Shown here piece after piece: positions 27,142-42,475 of a stretch of DNA of 42,547 nucleotides; positions within the stretch are counted from its first letter, which is position 1, and the number at the start of each line of letters is the position of its first letter. The notes beneath the pieces are model-generated. The model saw nothing but the letters and a program-made list of their open reading frames with translations. It did not search any database and was not told the origin of the DNA. This DNA comes from Pilatotrama ljubarskyi (taxonomy: Eukaryota > Basidiomycota > Agaricomycetes > Polyporales > Polyporaceae), in contig MU277801.1 in NCBI GenBank assembly GCA_022385805.1, positions 1 through 42,547 of the forward strand, read 5' to 3'. Position numbers and translations under genes: made by a program.

Positions 27142-28014
27142 TGAGAGGTCGTGACCGTGGCGGGAGACTGAGATCGCTTGTGAGCAGCCTCTGCGCCACT
27201 CGTAAAGCTACTTATACGGCGACATCGTACAAATATTATGGCGCCCACAGAGGAACCCGTTCAGGCAGCGTGCAGAGTAGTCGTCAAGGCGAGCGAGTCC
27301 CATAACAAGTCGGGCGTCGCAACAAAAGGGCCAGATACCACTGAAGAAGACGCGACGAATTGGGATGGCGCGTGCATGATGGGAACCTGCCGCAAAGACA
27401 AGAGCAAGAACAGGAGACATGGTACTCACTTGACGACAGTCCGCTGCCGAGTTGGAGGCTTCGTTTAGGTGAAGCTACTATTGTATACGTCCATCACCTT
27501 CCTTGGACTGACGATGTTGCCGAAGACCGCGCACCGCCGCGGGCAGCGCTCCGGTGGCGTACTACTTGACAATCTCTCCTCAGGCACATCCGTTACAATG
27601 GGCGAGGAGAGTCGAGCACATCACGGATCTGATGAAGGCTTTAGGTAAACAGTATGGCACCGGCTGCGCTAGGAAAGTGGTACCTCGCATTGGTTGAAGA
27701 GCGTTCGCAGGAGAGACACGCCACCGCACGCGAAGGGCATCGGCGCTTGTTATTTGGTGTCCGAGAGAGAGAGAGAGAGAGAGAAGGGGCTTCGATGGGG
27801 AGGCGCGCACGACGGTCTCCACCACGTGGAATACCGCGCCAGGCCCATACAGGGGCCCCATTTAGAGGGCACAGGTAGAGTATCAACGCTTGGCTTTGGC
27901 GAGCGGTACAGCGTATGCCGAAACACGGATGAATTGACAGGTAGTGTGAGACTACGCGTACTGTACAGCGCTGCGAAAGCAGGTCAGGAGCGCCGAGGGG
28001 CTGTTGTACGCTCA
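27142..28014. other. Intergenic region between kinase gene and retroelement
   Basis: This holds the kinase upstream region, a GA microsatellite, and presumably the unknown 3' end of the minus-strand retroelement. No gene is recognised. No clear poly(A)-like tail of the element could be found. Confidence 0.45.
27763..27784. repeat. (GA)11 microsatellite
   Basis: Eleven uninterrupted GA units are read directly. It lies about 230 bases downstream (in the element's sense) of the last possible retroelement codon. Confidence 0.95.
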
Positions 28015-28177
28015 TCAAGCATACACACTGGGCCCGCCCATTGCTAGTCCACTAGCAGTAGGCAGCTCGACGGCCCTGCCGGCGTATCTATCTAGAAGTA
28101 CTGTCCTATGGGCACACCTAAGGTAGTGCACCTGCTGCCGGAGCGGCATCAGGCGGGAGGAGGGGAGGAAGGGTGCC
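28015..28177 (-). pseudogene. Possible C-terminal end of retroelement ORF2 beyond the gap
   Basis: On the far side of the assembly gap, 54 codons read RLMPLRQQVHYLRCAHRTVL and on to a stop at 28015. The basic/aromatic make-up would suit the extreme C-terminus of the RT protein, but its link to the upstream part rests only on position, and the frame across 860 Ns means nothing. Confidence 0.4.
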
Positions 28178-29037
28178 NNNNNNNNNNNNNNNNNNNNNNN
28201 NNNNNNNNNNNNNNNNNNNNNNNNNNNNNNNNNNNNNNNNNNNNNNNNNNNNNNNNNNNNNNNNNNNNNNNNNNNNNNNNNNNNNNNNNNNNNNNNNNNN
28301 NNNNNNNNNNNNNNNNNNNNNNNNNNNNNNNNNNNNNNNNNNNNNNNNNNNNNNNNNNNNNNNNNNNNNNNNNNNNNNNNNNNNNNNNNNNNNNNNNNNN
28401 NNNNNNNNNNNNNNNNNNNNNNNNNNNNNNNNNNNNNNNNNNNNNNNNNNNNNNNNNNNNNNNNNNNNNNNNNNNNNNNNNNNNNNNNNNNNNNNNNNNN
28501 NNNNNNNNNNNNNNNNNNNNNNNNNNNNNNNNNNNNNNNNNNNNNNNNNNNNNNNNNNNNNNNNNNNNNNNNNNNNNNNNNNNNNNNNNNNNNNNNNNNN
28601 NNNNNNNNNNNNNNNNNNNNNNNNNNNNNNNNNNNNNNNNNNNNNNNNNNNNNNNNNNNNNNNNNNNNNNNNNNNNNNNNNNNNNNNNNNNNNNNNNNNN
28701 NNNNNNNNNNNNNNNNNNNNNNNNNNNNNNNNNNNNNNNNNNNNNNNNNNNNNNNNNNNNNNNNNNNNNNNNNNNNNNNNNNNNNNNNNNNNNNNNNNNN
28801 NNNNNNNNNNNNNNNNNNNNNNNNNNNNNNNNNNNNNNNNNNNNNNNNNNNNNNNNNNNNNNNNNNNNNNNNNNNNNNNNNNNNNNNNNNNNNNNNNNNN
28901 NNNNNNNNNNNNNNNNNNNNNNNNNNNNNNNNNNNNNNNNNNNNNNNNNNNNNNNNNNNNNNNNNNNNNNNNNNNNNNNNNNNNNNNNNNNNNNNNNNNN
29001 NNNNNNNNNNNNNNNNNNNNNNNNNNNNNNNNNNNNN
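28178..29037. other. Assembly gap (860 N)
   Basis: A continuous run of N interrupts the C-terminal part of the retroelement ORF2. Repetitive DNA is the likely reason for the gap. The size may be an estimate. Confidence 1.
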
Positions 29038-32000
29038 GGGTGGGGTGGCGCGACGAAGACGTTCGACTGCCAGGGGATGCTCGGAGAGCCGCAGTAAGGT
29101 TATGGCCTGCCGAAGACGGTGCGTGGGGAGGGAGAGGTAGGCTTGCGAGGTGCAGAGCGCCTCAAGCGAGGGCAGTCCGGGCTCTGAGTCGACCAGGATG
29201 CGCCGAAGTCGATGTTGCAGCAGGGGCAGGCGGCGGGAAGCCATGATAGCGTCGCGCAGGTGAGTGGCCAGGGCATGCTCGACAGCACGCAGGAGGCGTG
29301 TCACGTCCTCAACAGTGGGAAAACGGGCCAGGTCAACATCCACGGGGGCTGGCAGAGCGGCACCAGCATTACGGAGGTCGCTCCACCAGGTTGGAGCCCC
29401 ATGCAAGGTTGTGAGCTGCCAGAGAGCAATAAAGGAGTCGAGGACAAGCGCAGGCTTGTCGACGAGGATGTAGCGAAGGTAGCGAAGCGCAAGCGAGAAG
29501 CGTCGGTATGCAAGGGGCCACACACCGGTGTCGGTGAACAGCGGGGCAAGCTGAGAGCGAGGGCTAACATGGAGGGCACGCCGGAGGTATGTGGTTTGCA
29601 CATCGACCAGGCTAGCAAGGCCGGCGGGGCGCACATCTAGGACGACTTCGCATCCGGAGGTGAGGTGCGGTTCCACTCGTGCACGATAGAGTGTGAGCGC
29701 GATCGAGGGCGGCAGTGGTCCTACGTACGACGCCAGGGACATGCATGCATTGGCCGCTTTGATCGCAGCATCTTTCTTCGCAGCATAGTGGGGCACGAAG
29801 ATATCACGCTCTGTCGAGGTAAGGGACGTCCCGACATACTTAACTTGGGCGGTGTACATGAGCAGTCGGCCTTGGAGAGTGAGAGACGGGAGCGGGTCAG
29901 GGAGGGGACCGTGAATGCTGCTGAGGGTTTTTGGGATGTTGATGAGGAGGGAGTTGGCTGCACAGTAGCGCTCGAATGCATCGAGTTTCTCTTGCATGCC
30001 CGATGCTGAGAGGCTGATGAGAGCCATATCGTCTGCAAGTTCGAGGTGTGATATGCGGCGCCCATTGAGCAGGACATCGTGCGGATGTGGGAGAAGGTCG
30101 AAGTCAGAGAGGAAGAGAATCCAGAGGATCGGGGAGGCGGGGTCCCCAATGAGGATTCCCATCAGTGCACGGAAGCACTCAGTCATCTCTCCTGAGAGCA
30201 AGGACACGGGGTTAGTACAGCTGCAGGCACGCGGGCGTAGGGGCCTCGGTGGGGCTCACCTCCAAAGCGAACCGTGTATTGCAGCTGTTCGTAAAGCATG
30301 CGCAGCCAGTCGACCAACGGGCCATTCACACCCCAGCGCGCGAGCTTGGCCCAGAGCGTGGCCTGGTCAACGGAAGGGAAGGCGTTCTCGAGGTCGAGGT
30401 AGACAATCCAGACCGGTTTGGCGAGAGCTCGTGCACGCTCGATGAGGGCGCGGAGGATGTAGGCGTTATTGGAGGTACGGTGTCCAGCGCGGAACCCGCT
30501 CTGTGAGTCGGGCAGGCGTCCGGTGTCCTCCGCCCAGGCTCGCAGGCGACGATCGATGAGTAGCGTGAGGGCCTTGAGGAGGCATGACTCGAGGCCAATG
30601 GTGCGGTAGCTTTCAGGGAGTGTGGGGTCCTTGCCCGGCTTCTTGACCGCGGCGATGATGGCCGTGAGCCAAGCGTGGGGTGCGGCCCTGGAGTCCACGC
30701 AGGACTGGAAGAGGGCTCGCAGATCTTCGGAGGGCATGTTGAGGACGTCGGAGTAGCTGACACCGTCGATACCGCGCGCTGAGGAGCGGTTGTGTCGGCG
30801 GATGTGATCCTTTACGGTGTCGATCTCCTCTACCGTAAAGGGGCGGCTGAAGTGTTGGCCTCGTGACGTGTCCGTGGAGGGACGTGGCAGTGCCGCAGCC
30901 ATGAGTGTATTGAGAGCGCGCGCGAGAGGGTCAAAAGTCGGCGGCATGTCAGCAGGCGGGTTCATGCGGGCGCGAAAGACAGTAAGTAGCTGCTCCGGAG
31001 TAACAGGGGCATTTCTATACTTGTCATCTGTGAGGTTGTGATACGCTCGCCAAAAGGCACTGTCCGATGGTGCTCTGAGGAGTTATTCAAGAAAAACACG
31101 GCGCAGACCAAGGATCGGGACAGATTCTAGGCCCGACCCTTGCCAGCGGAGCTCATCCAGCTCAGGGGTGAGCGTCAGACCATCACTACGGGTGTGCGGT
31201 TCGGTAAGTAGCGGCTGTGGCGGTAGCGGCATGGACACTTTGAGGAGAGACGTGAGGAAGGCAGCAGCATCGGTCGGCCGAGCAGGCCAGAGTGCGGGGA
31301 CTAGAGGAGCTGGTGCACGCCAAGGTGCCGGCGCGGGTAAGGTCAGAGCTATTTCCGCTGAGCGTGCTGCAGCCGCAGCGAGCGGTGGGGGCTTCTCAGG
31401 AGGGTAGGTGAAGATGCGGACAGGTGCTGGGCGAGCGATGAGTAGGTCGGTGAGGGGCACGAGGAGATCTGCATGGGGGCATGCCCAGTGTTGTGCAGCG
31501 AGGGCAGGGGCCCAATGCGTGAGGACACGTGGCAGGTGGTCGTGTGGGGCCCAGATACGGAGGGCGCGGGTGGGGTCGAGTGACAGGACGAGTTGTACTG
31601 TGCCGAAGATCAGTGCGCGGGCCTCCGAGGGCTCGCCTGGGGCTCGTGCGCACCAGTTGTTGTCCAAGCCCCGCCCGAGGCAAGCTGCAATCGCGACAGC
31701 ATTGTCGGTATGAGCAGTGGCAAGGTAAGCGAACAATGGTGGACCATTGTGCCACGGGTCCCCGTAGAACATGCGCACTGCGTGGAGTGCGTGGTCTTTG
31801 AGCGGCGTGAGGATATCGGCTAGCTGTCGATCGAGGGCGGAGGCAGCGTGACTAGCAGCGGGCAGGCGGGGGCGGCTCGGGAGGGGCCGCTGCCGCAGTG
31901 ATGCAGATGGGGCCCGAGGTGTGGGGAGGAGGAGGAGTAGGGTTGTTGGCGCGTGATCAGCCCAGTCGAGTGGAGGATGTAGGACTTCGAAGTCGGACAC

Positions 32001-32768
32001 TGAGGGCGAGACCTGCGGCGCGGTCTCAGGAGCCACGTGACGTAGCAGGCTGCGCGAAGCGATGGCGAAGTCAATTACCGACTGACCTCCAGCTTGGAAG
32101 GATGTGTGGCGCTCGCGTGAGTGAGCTGTCTGACAGAGTGTGCCGTTGAGCAGTTCTAGGTGGAGCGCCTTGCACATGTCAGTGAGCCGGCGCCCGCGTG
32201 TAGAGATTACTGCATCAGGGGACACGCGCGGCAGCCCAGTGTTGAGGTCGCCAACACGGGCATTGAAGTCGCCGAGGAGCAGGAGCGGTAGTTCGCGCGC
32301 GAGAAGTGTTGGCAGGAGAAGCTCGTGGAGGCGCTATTCTGCCGTGAGTGGCGCATCAGCAAGCCATGGGGACGTCGGCGGGGGGAGGTATACATTGGCG
32401 AGCACAACCCGGGACGAGAGCTCTAGCAATAGCACTTCATGTTGGTGGGGAGGCAGCACAACCTGGACGTCAAGTGACGCGCGATAGAGCACAAGGAGTC
32501 CTCCCGATCGGTGGGACAGCAACACCGACTCGGGTCGGGAGAGAGCGACGCAGAGGTATCCCATCGGGAGCACCAGCTGGGCTTCCTGCCCCGGTCGTAG
32601 GTGTGTCTCTTGGAGGAAGATGATGTCGTAGCCGTGGATGTGCGCACAAAAGCGCGGGGAGGTCATTTTCAGGGCGAGGTTGCCATGTACATTCCATGAA
32701 AGGATACGTAGAGTACAGACATTTTGGGTGTCCCTACTAGTAACAAGTCGTCTAAGAGATAAAGGCAA
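29038..32768 (-). pseudogene. Retroelement ORF2: AP-like endonuclease plus reverse transcriptase, with stops
   Basis: The N-terminal domain is an exonuclease-endonuclease-phosphatase fold: LRILSWNVHG, IIFLQETHL (metal-binding Glu), LANVYLPPP, LLLLGDFNARVGD and the late WADHAPTT with Asp-His. The RT follows: SARGIDGVS, AVKKPGKDP, ESYRTIGL, SGFRAGHRTSN, VYLDLENAFPSV (motif A Asp), LIGDPASPILW (motif B) and HLELADDMALIS (motif C). Motif C is L-A-D-D rather than F/Y-x-D-D. A 68-nt canonical intron (30192-30259) must be removed to join motif A to motif B. Frame is broken by TAG at 32334-32336 and TAA at 31083-31085; each could come from a single C-to-T change in a Gln codon. No ATG is near the apparent start, and the open frame begins right after the ORF1 stop. 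The right part is lost in the gap. Confidence 0.85.
30192..30259 (-). other. Spliceosomal intron inside the reverse transcriptase domain
   Basis: On the minus strand the donor is GTGAGC, a perfect TACTAAC branch site lies 23 bases before the end, and the acceptor is TTGCTCTCAG. Removing the 68 bases joins YTVRFGG to EMTECFRALMG in frame, where the unspliced frame runs into a stop soon after. Length, branch sequence and frame restoration all agree. Confidence 0.88.
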
Positions 32769-32793
32769 AGCAGAACAGGTGAGGGCCGCCTAC
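32752..32793 (-). other. Candidate 42-nt intron joining ORF1 and ORF2
   Basis: Donor GTAGGC overlaps the ORF1 TAG; a pyrimidine-rich stretch and CTCTTAG acceptor follow. Removal keeps the frame and fuses ORF1 to the endonuclease through AYVL-RLVTSR. The donor is not ideal and 42 nt is near the lower limit for these fungi, so a true stop with separate translation of ORF2 is an equal alternative. Confidence 0.4.
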
Positions 32794-34568
32794 AAGACAT
32801 ATGCCCGAGCTTCATTATAGGGAGCCGCACGGGAGCGCAGGGACATCCACGCGTCAGCGAACGTTTGCGCGAGGAAGCGGGTCGGCATGTGGATGTGTAT
32901 GTAGAAGGCGTGCGATTGGTCACGGGTCACATCTGCAATGCGGTCGAACACCCCGGGAAGTTCCTCCCATACAGGTCCGGCCACCGCGTATAGCTGCCGT
33001 CGCAACTCTCCCGCGTCGTCCGCCCAGCGTACTTGTCCAAAGCGCACCGTGCCGGGCCCAGTGGGAGCATCGGGGGCGGGCGACGGAGCGGCTGGCACAT
33101 AGTTACGGGGCTCGAAGCCATTAGAGCGGCCTCGTTTGTTGTTATGCCTGGAATTGTTGTTAAATCGTCCGCCTCCTCGTCGAGGTGACGGAGACGGCGA
33201 GCGCGAGCGCGTGCGCGACCAGCCACTATGATGGGAGGCAGGAGGGGTGGCGGGAGCATACGTAACTGGTGTAGGCCACGACGTTGGGTAGGCCGGTGTG
33301 TGGGGGGCAGGAGCAGGCTCAGCAGCCGTCGGGTACTGGGGAGCGGCGGGCGGGCTGACCGGGTGATGGAGTGGAGCACGAGCGGGGCCAGCGGCTGGCA
33401 CAGCGCTGCAAGTCACTGGCGCAGGCGCAGACTGGGGAGCAGGTGGGGGGATCAGCACGCTGGCGGGCTGCGGGGAGGGAGCAGGCATTGCCACAGGAGC
33501 GGACAACGCAGCATAGGTAGGCGTGGGGACGGGCATCGGCGCATGTGCCAGTGCAGGGGAGACGAGTAGCACTGGGGCGGGACACGGCGTCAGCGCAGGG
33601 CCTAGGCCGGGGGCTTGTGCAGGCGCATAAGCGGGAGGCAAGGACGAGTAGTTAGGGATTGGGCCTTGGGGAAGGGAGGACGCATGCGACAGCGCTGCAG
33701 CAGGTACGGGCTCGAGAAGGTGCGCAGGGGCGAGGGGAGCGGTCGGTGTAGAGTTCGGCGCTGGTAAGGGTGCAGGTCTGTGCATGGTCGCGCCTAGTTT
33801 GTTTACAGCGGAAAGCACGTCACGAATGTCGTCAAGAATTTCAGAAAGGGAGTCCAAGATGGCAGTGTACTGCGCACCTCGACGGTTGTCCTCAACCTCC
33901 GTGTGTTGTACGAGCGCCTCGACACGCATCTCGACGTCGTGGAGCGGGATGGGACTAGAGGGAGACAGCAGGGAGGGGGTGTTGAGCCGTTCCTGGATGC
34001 CGGCCACCATGGTCGTGAGGTTGAGCAGGGCATCCTCTGTGCGCGAGCGGTGGGCATCGTGGGCTTTTGTTGAGCGGGTAACGAGCTCGAAGAGCGTGCG
34101 CACGTCTTGCTTCAGGGCAGGAATGTTCTGGCGACCGACATTGTTTCTGAGCGTGGTGGTGAGCAGGATATCGTCCGGGTCGCCGTTGGGGTCCCGGGGA
34201 GCGTCACCTGCTGCGTCGTCTGGGGGCGAGTCTGCAGCGGAGTCTGCGGCTGGCGGAGCCTTGCTGGCGCGGCTTTTCCCTCTATCGAGGGCACTAACGG
34301 GCGCAGTCTCGGTGCGTTGGCGCGTGAGGCGGACAAACGAGGCAGAGGTCTGACGGGACATGCAGCGTTGGTGAGATGAAGGAGGGATTAGCGGCATTCT
34401 ACGCACGGGTGTGGGAGGGTCGATCGAGGAGGCAGGCTGCAGACCACTCTCCGTCGTCGGGGATAGCGGGGGCTCTGAGAGGCCGGCAGGGGAAGTAGTC
34501 GGTGCAGCGGGAGGTGGAGACCCCGCGTAGGAGAGAGCGTCTTCGCAGACCTCTGTAAGCTGGCTCAT
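32790..34568 (-). CDS. Retroelement ORF1, gag-like nucleic-acid-binding protein (592 aa)
   Basis: The ORF is intact. Residues about 1-140 are polar and disordered. Residues about 140-262 contain two helical, likely coiled-coil segments (around LFELVTRSTKAHDAHRSRTE and LDSLSEILDDIRDVLSAV) that could drive multimerisation, as in LINE ORF1 proteins. Residues 263-455 are a Pro/Ala spacer. Residues about 456-490 are an Arg/Ser then Arg/Gly/Asn-rich stretch (SRTRSRSPSPSPRRGGGRF) likely to bind RNA. No CCHC zinc knuckle is present. The last 85 residues (FGQVRWADD to RAYVL) look like a small alpha/beta domain, perhaps RRM-like, which is a guess. It lies directly upstream of the endonuclease in the same frame. 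Confidence 0.75.
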   Translation of the reverse strand: MSQLTEVCEDALSYAGSPPPAAPTTSPAGLSEPPLSPTTESGLQPASSIDPPTPVRRMPLIPPSSHQRCMSRQTSASFVRLTRQRTETAPVSALDRGKSRASKAPPAADSAADSPPDDAAGDAPRDPNGDPDDILLTTTLRNNVGRQNIPALKQDVRTLFELVTRSTKAHDAHRSRTEDALLNLTTMVAGIQERLNTPSLLSPSSPIPLHDVEMRVEALVQHTEVEDNRRGAQYTAILDSLSEILDDIRDVLSAVNKLGATMHRPAPLPAPNSTPTAPLAPAHLLEPVPAAALSHASSLPQGPIPNYSSLPPAYAPAQAPGLGPALTPCPAPVLLVSPALAHAPMPVPTPTYAALSAPVAMPAPSPQPASVLIPPPAPQSAPAPVTCSAVPAAGPARAPLHHPVSPPAAPQYPTAAEPAPAPHTPAYPTSWPTPVTYAPATPPASHHSGWSRTRSRSPSPSPRRGGGRFNNNSRHNNKRGRSNGFEPRNYVPAAPSPAPDAPTGPGTVRFGQVRWADDAGELRRQLYAVAGPVWEELPGVFDRIADVTRDQSHAFYIHIHMPTRFLAQTFADAWMSLRSRAAPYNEARAYVL

Positions 34569-34970
34569 TGCGGGGGTGTATCGCGACGGACAGATGAGCC
34601 ATTTTAAGGGGGAGCCGTTTGTTTTCTTTTTATGCGTATGGTGGCAGTGGCTGTTAGGAACTGTGCAGTTCCGTAAGCAGAGCGCCTACGTTGTTGCGAA
34701 AATTTACAGCGCGGGGGTGTGTAGTTGTAGGCGTCGCAGGTGGGTATGTGCAAGGGAGAGCTGTAGCAGGTGTACCGAGGCGGTCGGGCAGAGAGAAACG
34801 ACATGAGGGCGAGAGACACGAGGTTGCGGAGGCAGTAGCCACGAAGCCTTCGGTTATCACAAATGTGTCATATATGGTGCGTGCGCAGCGCTGGTTGTCA
34901 TCCGGGCCCTCGACGTGCCATCCCACCTAACCGTCCCGCAGGTCCGGCTTAGTTAGCCGTGAGAGTCCGG

Positions 34971-40372: not shown

Positions 40373-42475
40373 CTACATGCTGTCCGCGCTGCTACCGATT
40401 CGCTCGAGAACCTTGATGAACCGTCCGGAGTCTCTAATACTATCCAAACCTGGTATGCCGCCTTCCCCGCCGCCGTCGCCCTCATCATTATCGTCGCCGC
40501 CATCACTGTTCTCGGTCATGCCGACCGAAGCTCCCGCTCGCACCGCCCACGGAGGGAGAGGTACGCCGTCGACGAGAGTGGGGTCGCGCCCGAGACGAGG
40601 ACCGTATGCGAGGAGACCCGAGAACCCCGGCAGGCAGGAGGTCTTGTATAGCCAGTTGACAACCTTCGCATTGATGGAGTTAGCGTGTTGCTGACGCCGC
40701 TCCAGTTCGGCCGCAAGCTCGGGATACATGTCCAAACTCGCCGAGATCGCGCGGTGGTAGTCGACATGCTCATCCACCATAGCGGAGAAGAGGCGGCGGA
40801 CTTCGACGTTCAAACGCGCGATCTCCTCGTGGGCGCGTTTGACGTTGAAGTACACCGCCGCCGCCTCCCTGTTTGACCGTCTCGCCCACTCCAACTGGCG
40901 GATATCCCGGCGCGCGTCGCGGAGAAGATCGAACTCGCCCAATGAGACCATATCCATGATCTCGTTGAAGACGAGCTGGGCGCGCGGGGGTTTCAGCTCG
41001 CTTGCGCGGCGATTGTACTCCGCGAGCGCCTTGCGAATAGCCTCTGCGCGCGTCTTGAGGGCCTTCCCGATCTTGTCGCGCATCTTGTATGCTGTGCAAG
41101 AGGCGATTAGTGCAGAGCGCGGAATGAAATACCTAGACCTACCGACTCCGCTCATTCCGAGCTTGTCGAGCTCGAAGAACCGCTGCACTACGAGTCGCTC
41201 GAGGTTGTCGAGCGCGCGACGATACTTCCGGCATGCAAGCTCGTCCTTCATCCTCTTGTACTCAGGCGACTGCGGCATCCACCGCTCTTCGACCTCGAGG
41301 ACTTCTTCGAGGCGGCAGACCTCCTCTTCAGCCTGTTGGACGCGCACGTGCGCGTTGCGATAATTGCGTCTGATCTTGCGCACCTCCGTCGGGCCGAGGG
41401 ACTGAGCGACGATGAGATAGTCGAGTTTCTTGAACAACTCGATCGCAGCCTGATCCTTGAGGCTACGTAACATCAGTACAGTGAGTCGGAAGAGCATGCA
41501 CGAGAACGCGAGACATACCGCGCTTTCTCGAGGTTGTCGAGAGCCTCCATATACTCCAGTTTGTGGGCTAATTCCGGGGGCTCGCTCTTGAGGGACTGCA
41601 GATATTCGCCTTCCTCCACGAGGTAGCGCTCGTAGTCGACATCTGAGGTACCCAGCTCCACGCTATAGACCGCGAGAGCGCGCGTACCCTCTTCGATGAT
41701 CTGCAAAGCTTGTCGATAGTTGTTGAAGATGAATTTGCCTGGCATGGATCCCGATCAGCAGGTTCCTTGCAATAGGGGAATTAGCACTCACCAGATTCTT
41801 CGTGCTTTTGCATGCCCCAAAAATGGACGTATTGCTCGATCGCCTGGTGACGATGGAATTCGGTCGCCAGGCGCGTGCCCGATGCAAGGCCGTTCAGGAG
41901 CGAAAAAAAGCGCTCGCATCCTTCGAAGTCCTCCTTGCCGACGCCGTCCATATACATGGGGTGCCACTGCAGCTGACAGCCACGATTGTGACTATGCCCG
42001 TGGAAGGCCGGTACGACCCCGGACACTCGTCCTTCAACACGGGGACCGAGGGAGCTCCTTTTGAGGGTCTTGTCAAACTCACAGTATATGTCGTAACCGA
42101 GCTTGACCTTGAGATCCTCGCCGTATACCGATAGGAGCTTGTCGACGATGGCGATGGGGTACTTCAACCTGCAGGGTGTCAGTGGACTCGAGGTGCACGA
42201 ACACGGAAATTTACTCACAATTCACCACTGCGAACCATGTCGCACATGGTGAGGACCTGGCCATGGCGGCACAGGCAACAGAAGACGCCGGTGGTGTTGA
42301 AGAGCGCAAACATCTTCTTTCGCGCTTCGGGTCCTGCGTTACGCCAACGCTCGGCGCAGAGGGAAGGCGAGTCCGCGGGTTCCATGGCGGGCGGGGCGCA
42401 GCTGTCATCGCTTGATGACAAGGCGGGCGTGCCGGGATCATCAGGTGGCGTCGCGGTGATGTGCCAAAATCTACC
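40373..42475 (-). CDS. KDZ (Kyakuja-Dileera-Zisupton) family transposase, C-terminal 630 residues
   Basis: Five exons in the window (42475-42219, 42168-41792, 41738-41519, 41462-41143, 41091-40373) join in frame; earlier exons lie beyond the right edge, because an acceptor (CTTTAG) precedes 42475. Family landmarks are plain: CAERWRNAGPEARKKMFALF, ETG-like NTTGVFCCLCRHGQVL, MVRSGEL-LKYPIAIVDKLL, LGYDIYCEF, VVPAFHGHSHNRGCQLQWHP, EDFEGCERFFSLLN and TEFHRHQAIEQY. The Asp in GYDIYCEF and the Glu in EGCERFFS are candidate acidic residues of the RNase H-fold core; the first catalytic Asp and any CxC zinc cluster would be outside the window. The C-terminal 300 residues are helical and end in an acidic Gly/Asp tail. 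No stop or frameshift is seen. KDZ elements are cut-and-paste DNA transposons expanded in mushrooms. Confidence 0.9.

Follow-up and report, generated by a model that had tools for sequence, protein, structure and literature searches.

A LINE (non-LTR retrotransposon) in the 42,547-base window, the whole stretch of DNA that was analysed, has a 68-nt segment with the anatomy of a spliceosomal intron inside its reverse transcriptase (RT). Exactly these bases are missing from sister families of the same genome, three copies with unrelated flanks contain them, and open, conserved frames lie on both sides. We propose, with a probability of roughly 60%, that this family gained an intron, that spliced mRNA would make the RT and that unspliced RNA would be the template that is copied. 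To our knowledge, copying from unspliced RNA is not expected for LINE elements.

Structure of the element and of its intron

The window is contig C132 of a genome of 33.1 Mb in 173 contigs. An earlier note on this DNA had recognized a LINE-like context, and the element is indeed a full-length LINE (Table 1). An APE-type endonuclease lies upstream of RT, since Pfam detects Exo_endo_phos (2.1e-15) and RVT_1 in one frame of exon 1 of the copy on contig C164. The rest of RT was found in exon 2 by profile search, and a Pfam scan of ORF1 gave no match. ORF2 is followed by a 3' UTR and the TC-repeat tail. As is characteristic of LINEs, the copies have a common 3' end with a simple-sequence tail and one of them is 5'-truncated.

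Table 1. Features of the LINE in the window (positions of the forward strand).
Feature	Position	Strand	Remark
Whole LINE (non-LTR retrotransposon)	27763..34923	minus	5' end at 34923, 3' tail at 27763
ORF1, 631-aa stop-to-stop frame	32790..34685	minus	ended by TAG at 32790-32792
ORF2 exon 1	30260..32789	minus	endonuclease domain and RT motifs through motif A
Endonuclease domain in ORF2 exon 1	~32702-32025	minus	
RT motifs up to motif A in ORF2 exon 1	~30644-30291	minus	
Putative intron, 68 nt, spliceosomal-type, phase 1	30192..30259	minus	GTGAGC / TACTAAC / CTCAG
ORF2 exon 2	28118..30191	minus	RT from motif B on, C-terminal Cys-His cluster
Stop codon closing the unspliced ORF2 frame, ahead of motif B	30183..30185	minus	
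3' tail TT(CT)n, 23 nt	27763..27785	minus	18-23 nt across seven copies

In the window copy, ORF2 exon 1 is broken by in-frame stops at 32334 and 31083, and exon 2 is interrupted by a run of 860 N (28178-29037). Since C164 and the copy on contig C159 have 261 bases at this place, with 4 differing positions between them, the run seems to be a gap in the assembly that was given an incorrect length.

ORF1 and ORF2 lie in one frame with a single TAG between them, and no ATG precedes the endonuclease motif ILSWNVHGN of ORF2 (32789-32700). The bases GTAGGCGGCCCT around this TAG are also conserved in the related element on contig C138, where the frame of ORF2 differs. Excision of a 42-nt stretch, GTAGGC...CTTAG, would eliminate this TAG and keep the frame. 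The stop might thus be passed by means of a second mini-intron, and readthrough and reinitiation are just as conceivable. Upstream of the LINE a different repeat extends from 34924 to at least 36800 and ends at the start of the LINE. This repeat is 99.9% identical on contig C8; copies with 75% identity on C51 and C6 stop at the same position and are followed by unrelated DNA. A KDZ transposase match at 41784-42221 is possibly linked to it.

The 68-nt segment has the traits of a U2-type intron. It has GT...AG ends and a branch site, the A of which is 20 nt before the last G, and its removal restores the frame by joining the two RT halves as ...QYTVRFG-G-EMTECFRALMGILIGDPASP... The length of 68 is no multiple of three, and the unspliced frame stops just inside exon 2. 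The segment is located between two stretches that we take to be motif A (YLDLENAFPSVD) and motif B (GILIGDPASP). The earlier note had placed an intron with these signals between the two motifs, and its coordinates proved to be exact, as did the in-frame joining.

A strict intron pattern (GTRAGY..TACTAAC..YAG within spacing limits that we set) occurs a single time over the two strands of the window, at the LINE intron, and none of 300 order-1 simulations of the LINE contained it. Only 4 of 1,500,000 shuffles of the 68-mer fit, end to end, a looser consensus that we assume to be of the basidiomycete type. With 2 donor positions in the sense strand of the LINE versus 1.73 expected, this looser consensus by itself is not rare and is no evidence for an intron. 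The strongest argument for a putative intron is the exact absence of the segment from relatives, which is independent of any pattern. The 68-mer has 3 matches across the genome, all at the LINE site, and the genome search revealed no other source of these bases. Around the two splice sites, GGTGAG and GGAGAG may be the trace of a small duplication made when the intron was gained, but they are too short to serve as evidence.

Copies with the intron and relatives without it

The intron is present in all three family copies found that cover the site, i.e. in the window and on contigs C164 and C159. Further 3' ends were left out of this count, namely those on C144 and C145 (contig edge), C60 (short) and C22 (region deleted), as was a copy at 45 kb on C44, the exon-2 matches of which begin only at residue 72. 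A 261-base probe across the intron site had five matches among those listed in the genome, three at 100% (C132, C164 and C159) and two abutting pieces on C73 at 79 and 75%. C164 matches the window over 4916 bases (99.4%) and C159 over 1325 bases (99.8%), and one base of the intron separates both of them from the window. No intronless copy of the window family was among the matches listed in the genome search, which scores its best candidates and may have missed copies.

The downstream flanks next to the element do not match among these three copies. C159 starts at a position corresponding to 30362 of the window, 103 bases ahead of the intron, and this start is a 5' truncation as left by aborted target-primed reverse transcription. 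The 5' end of C164 is cut by the contig edge, and its mode of insertion was judged from the 3' end alone. In total, seven copies have the same kind of TC tail followed by differing downstream bases. Another copy (C22:342032-343215) has lost about 5.4 kb inside, its first ~96 element bases being joined to late exon 2.

These copies bear on two suggestions of the earlier note. A host-fixed RT gene family is contradicted by the seven 3' ends with different downstream bases, by the truncated and internally deleted copies and by the two stops in ORF2 of the window copy; a domesticated host RT gene was likewise rejected because of several insertions, different flanks and truncations. Mobilization as unspliced RNA, on the other hand, gains support from three intron-bearing copies with unrelated flanks, one of them 5'-truncated, and none listed without the intron. 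A switch that works through splicing, which the note had offered as well, is conceivable.

Between the window and C164 (29038-33953) 29 differences were counted. Transitions account for 26 of them and fall into two types, T in the window against C in C164 (15) and G in the window against A in C164 (11), with no case of the reverse; 16 differences touch CpG. The pattern resembles strand-specific damage to cytosines in the individual copies, the changes being unpolarised.

In an alignment with related elements of the same genome, the 68-nt insertion appears in the three copies of the window family, and exactly the intron bases are missing in C49, C138 and C73 as well as in the more diverged C6 and C44. 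The protein matches flanking the site are 6 nt apart in C49 and 12 nt apart in C138, which fits no insert. C138 has a single 802-aa frame across both halves. In C49 an open frame of 1331 aa runs over ORF2, and its 3' end has TC repeats like those of the window family. Over 572 residues C49 is ~65% identical to the window family, and the alignment shows no difference in length. On the two sides of the intron, C49 and C138 show 60-74% identity to the window family. C73 was considered as a spliced copy of the window family and rejected, since its matches with C49 (735 bases at 78%, 506 at 73%) surpass those with the window family (356 bases at 74%, 188 at 73%) and its residues at the site are those of C49. 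Across the genome, 43 of 52 RVT_1 matches, a list that takes in other retroelement classes, span profile positions 100-125 unbroken. Five of the nine broken matches belong to the three window-family copies, the others to C21 (two), C10 and C29.

The related families read in this genome lack the intron, and the tree puts the window family in their midst, so that a single gain within the window family is the most likely history; absence of the intron is established for families of this one genome. Related intact copies without the 68 bases had been named in the earlier note as an argument against an intron, and C49 is literally such a copy. As a separate family with the divergence given above, however, it speaks for the intron having been gained and not against its existence. 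The occurrence at the same site in many copies, which the note had also raised, holds for all three family copies found and not for the related families of this genome.

The closest named database proteins are from Trametes cinnabarina, Trametes cubensis and Ganoderma sinense, which makes a polypore-type Agaricomycete the probable host; the best ten matches, named and unnamed, have 46-61% amino-acid identity in the RT region. Among 24 database relatives, no translated intron is seen in the 23 that can be aligned across the site; the alignment of P0018 stops before it. Within a stretch of 170 residues, length changes are found in P0004 (+1), P0015 (-10), P0021 (+8) and P0024 (+6). P0015, a gene model from Tricholomella constricta, departs from its close relative P0013 at the intron site, just before residue 1372, where the part from VRHGG to the start of motif B is swapped for a short unrelated run. 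A predicted intron, a frameshift or a deletion may lie behind this change. P0009 has an RNase H domain (residues 235-370) between endonuclease and RT; the domain is weak and below the cut-off in P0001 and P0002, and the window family gave no match to it. In a tree, for which 25 of the 27 rows were used (P0018 and P0024 were dropped for short alignments), the window family falls together with C49, C138, P0001 and P0003 in a group without internal resolution, inside a supported group of ten. The tree fits a gain inside this group and gives no order of the families.

Constraint after the intron was judged by amino-acid identities between families. Over 245 residues past the intron, the window family is identical to C49 at 66.5%, to C138 at 60.4%, to P0001 at 61.6%, to P0002 at 57.1% and to P0003 at 65.3% of the positions, and these five are mutually 59.2-65.3% identical over the same region. 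Since its identity to the relatives is about the range among those relatives, the downstream half is neither decayed nor released from constraint, as would be expected had it gone untranslated for a long time, although a very recent gain would look alike. In C164 there is no stop in ORF2 exon 1, and its 843 + 491 residues around the intron compare with the 1331-aa frame of C49.

Which RNA is copied

According to the mechanism we propose, one family of this fungal LINE acquired a spliceosomal intron inside RT, and the host spliceosome would remove it from part of the transcripts. A complete endonuclease-RT protein could be encoded by the spliced mRNA only; the protein predicted from unspliced RNA ends 25 residues past VRFG and is without motif B. 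The template reverse-transcribed at the target would be a transcript that has kept its intron. RT would bind this transcript in trans or before it leaves the nucleus, probably by way of the 3' end. The intron would in this way be passed on to new copies, in at least two further insertion events. We infer splicing in vivo and an enzyme made from spliced RNA from the intron anatomy and the frames. That unspliced RNA is the usual template is suggested because copies of spliced RNA would lack the intron, would still encode the enzyme, and none was among the matches listed. LINE proteins are thought to copy mainly their own encoding RNA (cis-preference). If the enzyme needs spliced mRNA, the template would not be the RNA that was translated. 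The evidence for this mechanism comes from three near-identical copies in one genome. Since only these cover the site, the intron may be recent and the copying events may be few.

As a tentative and rather doubtful extension, the two RNAs could have obligate roles as in retroviruses, the spliced form being mRNA only and the unspliced form being only the genome that is copied. Such a LINE would be without cis-preference, splicing would be a sorting step, and the intron would be selected because intronless copies are poorly expressed or excluded.

It is unlikely that the family is mobilized in trans by an intronless sister LINE, for instance by the RT of C49. The intron would then be a passenger, and splicing of the element itself would be irrelevant. 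C49, with its intact ORF2 and its tail of the same kind, could be a source of enzyme; however, it is not among the matches for the 3' 410 nt of the family in a DNA search. In addition, the family's own exon 2 is conserved as in the relatives, and C164 has open frames before and after the intron.

It is also improbable that the gain was very recent and neutral, with spliced RNA as the usual template and a few recent copies made from unspliced RNA by chance. The small number of near-identical copies, with one differing base in the intron among them, would agree with such a history. In that case, however, functional spliced copies should appear, but all three copies found keep the intron and none without it is among the matches listed.

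Had the three copies arisen by duplication at the DNA level, the intron would be uninformative about the RNA template. A target-site duplication, which is usual for LINEs without defining them, was looked for at the three copies whose ends are both known (window, C159 and C22), and none was seen; in C22 the sole common word is 5 bases long and 12 nt off the junction. Two of the three intron-bearing copies (C164 and C159) are on small contigs of 14.8 and 22.7 kb. Furthermore, the last 94 bases of the window contig (42454-42547) recur at 99% on C164, where they are ~8.9 kb downstream of the LINE, compared with a distance of 7.5 kb in the window. Nevertheless, each of the three pairs loses its homology at the 3' tail, and C159 does so at its 5' truncation as well; the tails vary in length (C132 23, C164 19 and C159 18 nt), and the flanks adjoining the element differ. 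The window copy also starts at the same 5' base as the C22 copy, which is preceded by other sequence. Duplication of DNA is thus a very unlikely origin of the copies.

Just as unlikely is the assumption that the 68 bases are not an intron, and are either translated as 23 extra residues after a ribosomal -1 frameshift or a damaging insert. The segment is open in the frame of exon 1, and in the frame of exon 2 back to 30255. But the overlap contains no in-frame slippery heptamer (X_XXY_YYZ), and none of the database relatives that align across the site has such extra residues. Moreover, the segment has GT/AG ends and a branch site, and its boundaries coincide with the alignment gap of the relatives.

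An antisense transcript as template, in which the intron would be unrecognisable, has been proposed for intron retention in Penelope elements (PMC3846280, in the portion available), but it is the least probable explanation here, as the 3' tail and the 5' truncation correspond to target-primed reverse transcription of sense RNA.

Comparison with known systems

The window LINE resembles the APE-endonuclease LINEs of Agaricomycetes in having the endonuclease ahead of RT. It differs from the LINE families of the same genome, which have no intron at the site; the database proteins were compared at the amino-acid level. Retained introns are known from Penelope-like elements (PLEs), whose mechanism apparently permits intron retention, for example in Adineta vaga, and a divergent Penelope copy was reported with an intron in its ORF (PMC3846280). 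In the portion of that paper available, unspliced-sense or antisense templates are discussed, and PLEs are set apart from every other type of retrotransposon. Their endonuclease is a GIY-YIG enzyme, and they have a common ancestry with telomerase (PMC3846280, same portion), whereas the window LINE has an endonuclease of the APE type. Membership in the Penelope group was rejected, since Pfam gives Exo_endo_phos and no GIY-YIG in the pieces scanned. By analogy, the window LINE seems to do what Penelope does, namely to retain an intron.

Cryptococcus neoformans is another basidiomycete in which splicing efficiency matters for transposons. According to the available part of PMC5851062, SCANR/RNAi recognises and silences transcripts there that are spliced inefficiently, and these typically stem from transposons. 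Poor splicing thus marks transposons in Cryptococcus, whereas the signals of the window LINE match the consensus and the element has multiplied. The accessible text of PMC3744415 and PMC5851062 further states that intron removal strongly lowers the mRNA of most Cryptococcus genes tested. By analogy, such an effect could be a reason for the intron being kept. Introners and introner-like elements are recently gained, complete spliceosomal introns (PMC9860276, in the part available). They are located at several gene positions, in contrast to the window 68-mer with its single LINE site. An introner origin was therefore rejected.

In a partial survey of the open-licence literature, covering the available text of, among others, PMC5718144, PMC3846280, PMC5851062, PMC3411680, PMC9860276 and PMC2678813, no LINE with a retained intron was found. 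Within this survey, the LINE case described here appears to be new.

An intron that must be removed for RT to be made and is nevertheless inherited would be a natural marker that the copied RNA is not the translated one. Hence, it becomes testable which RNA population a fungal LINE copies. It can likewise be tested whether a transposon may exploit intron retention, a feature by which a basidiomycete host polices such elements.
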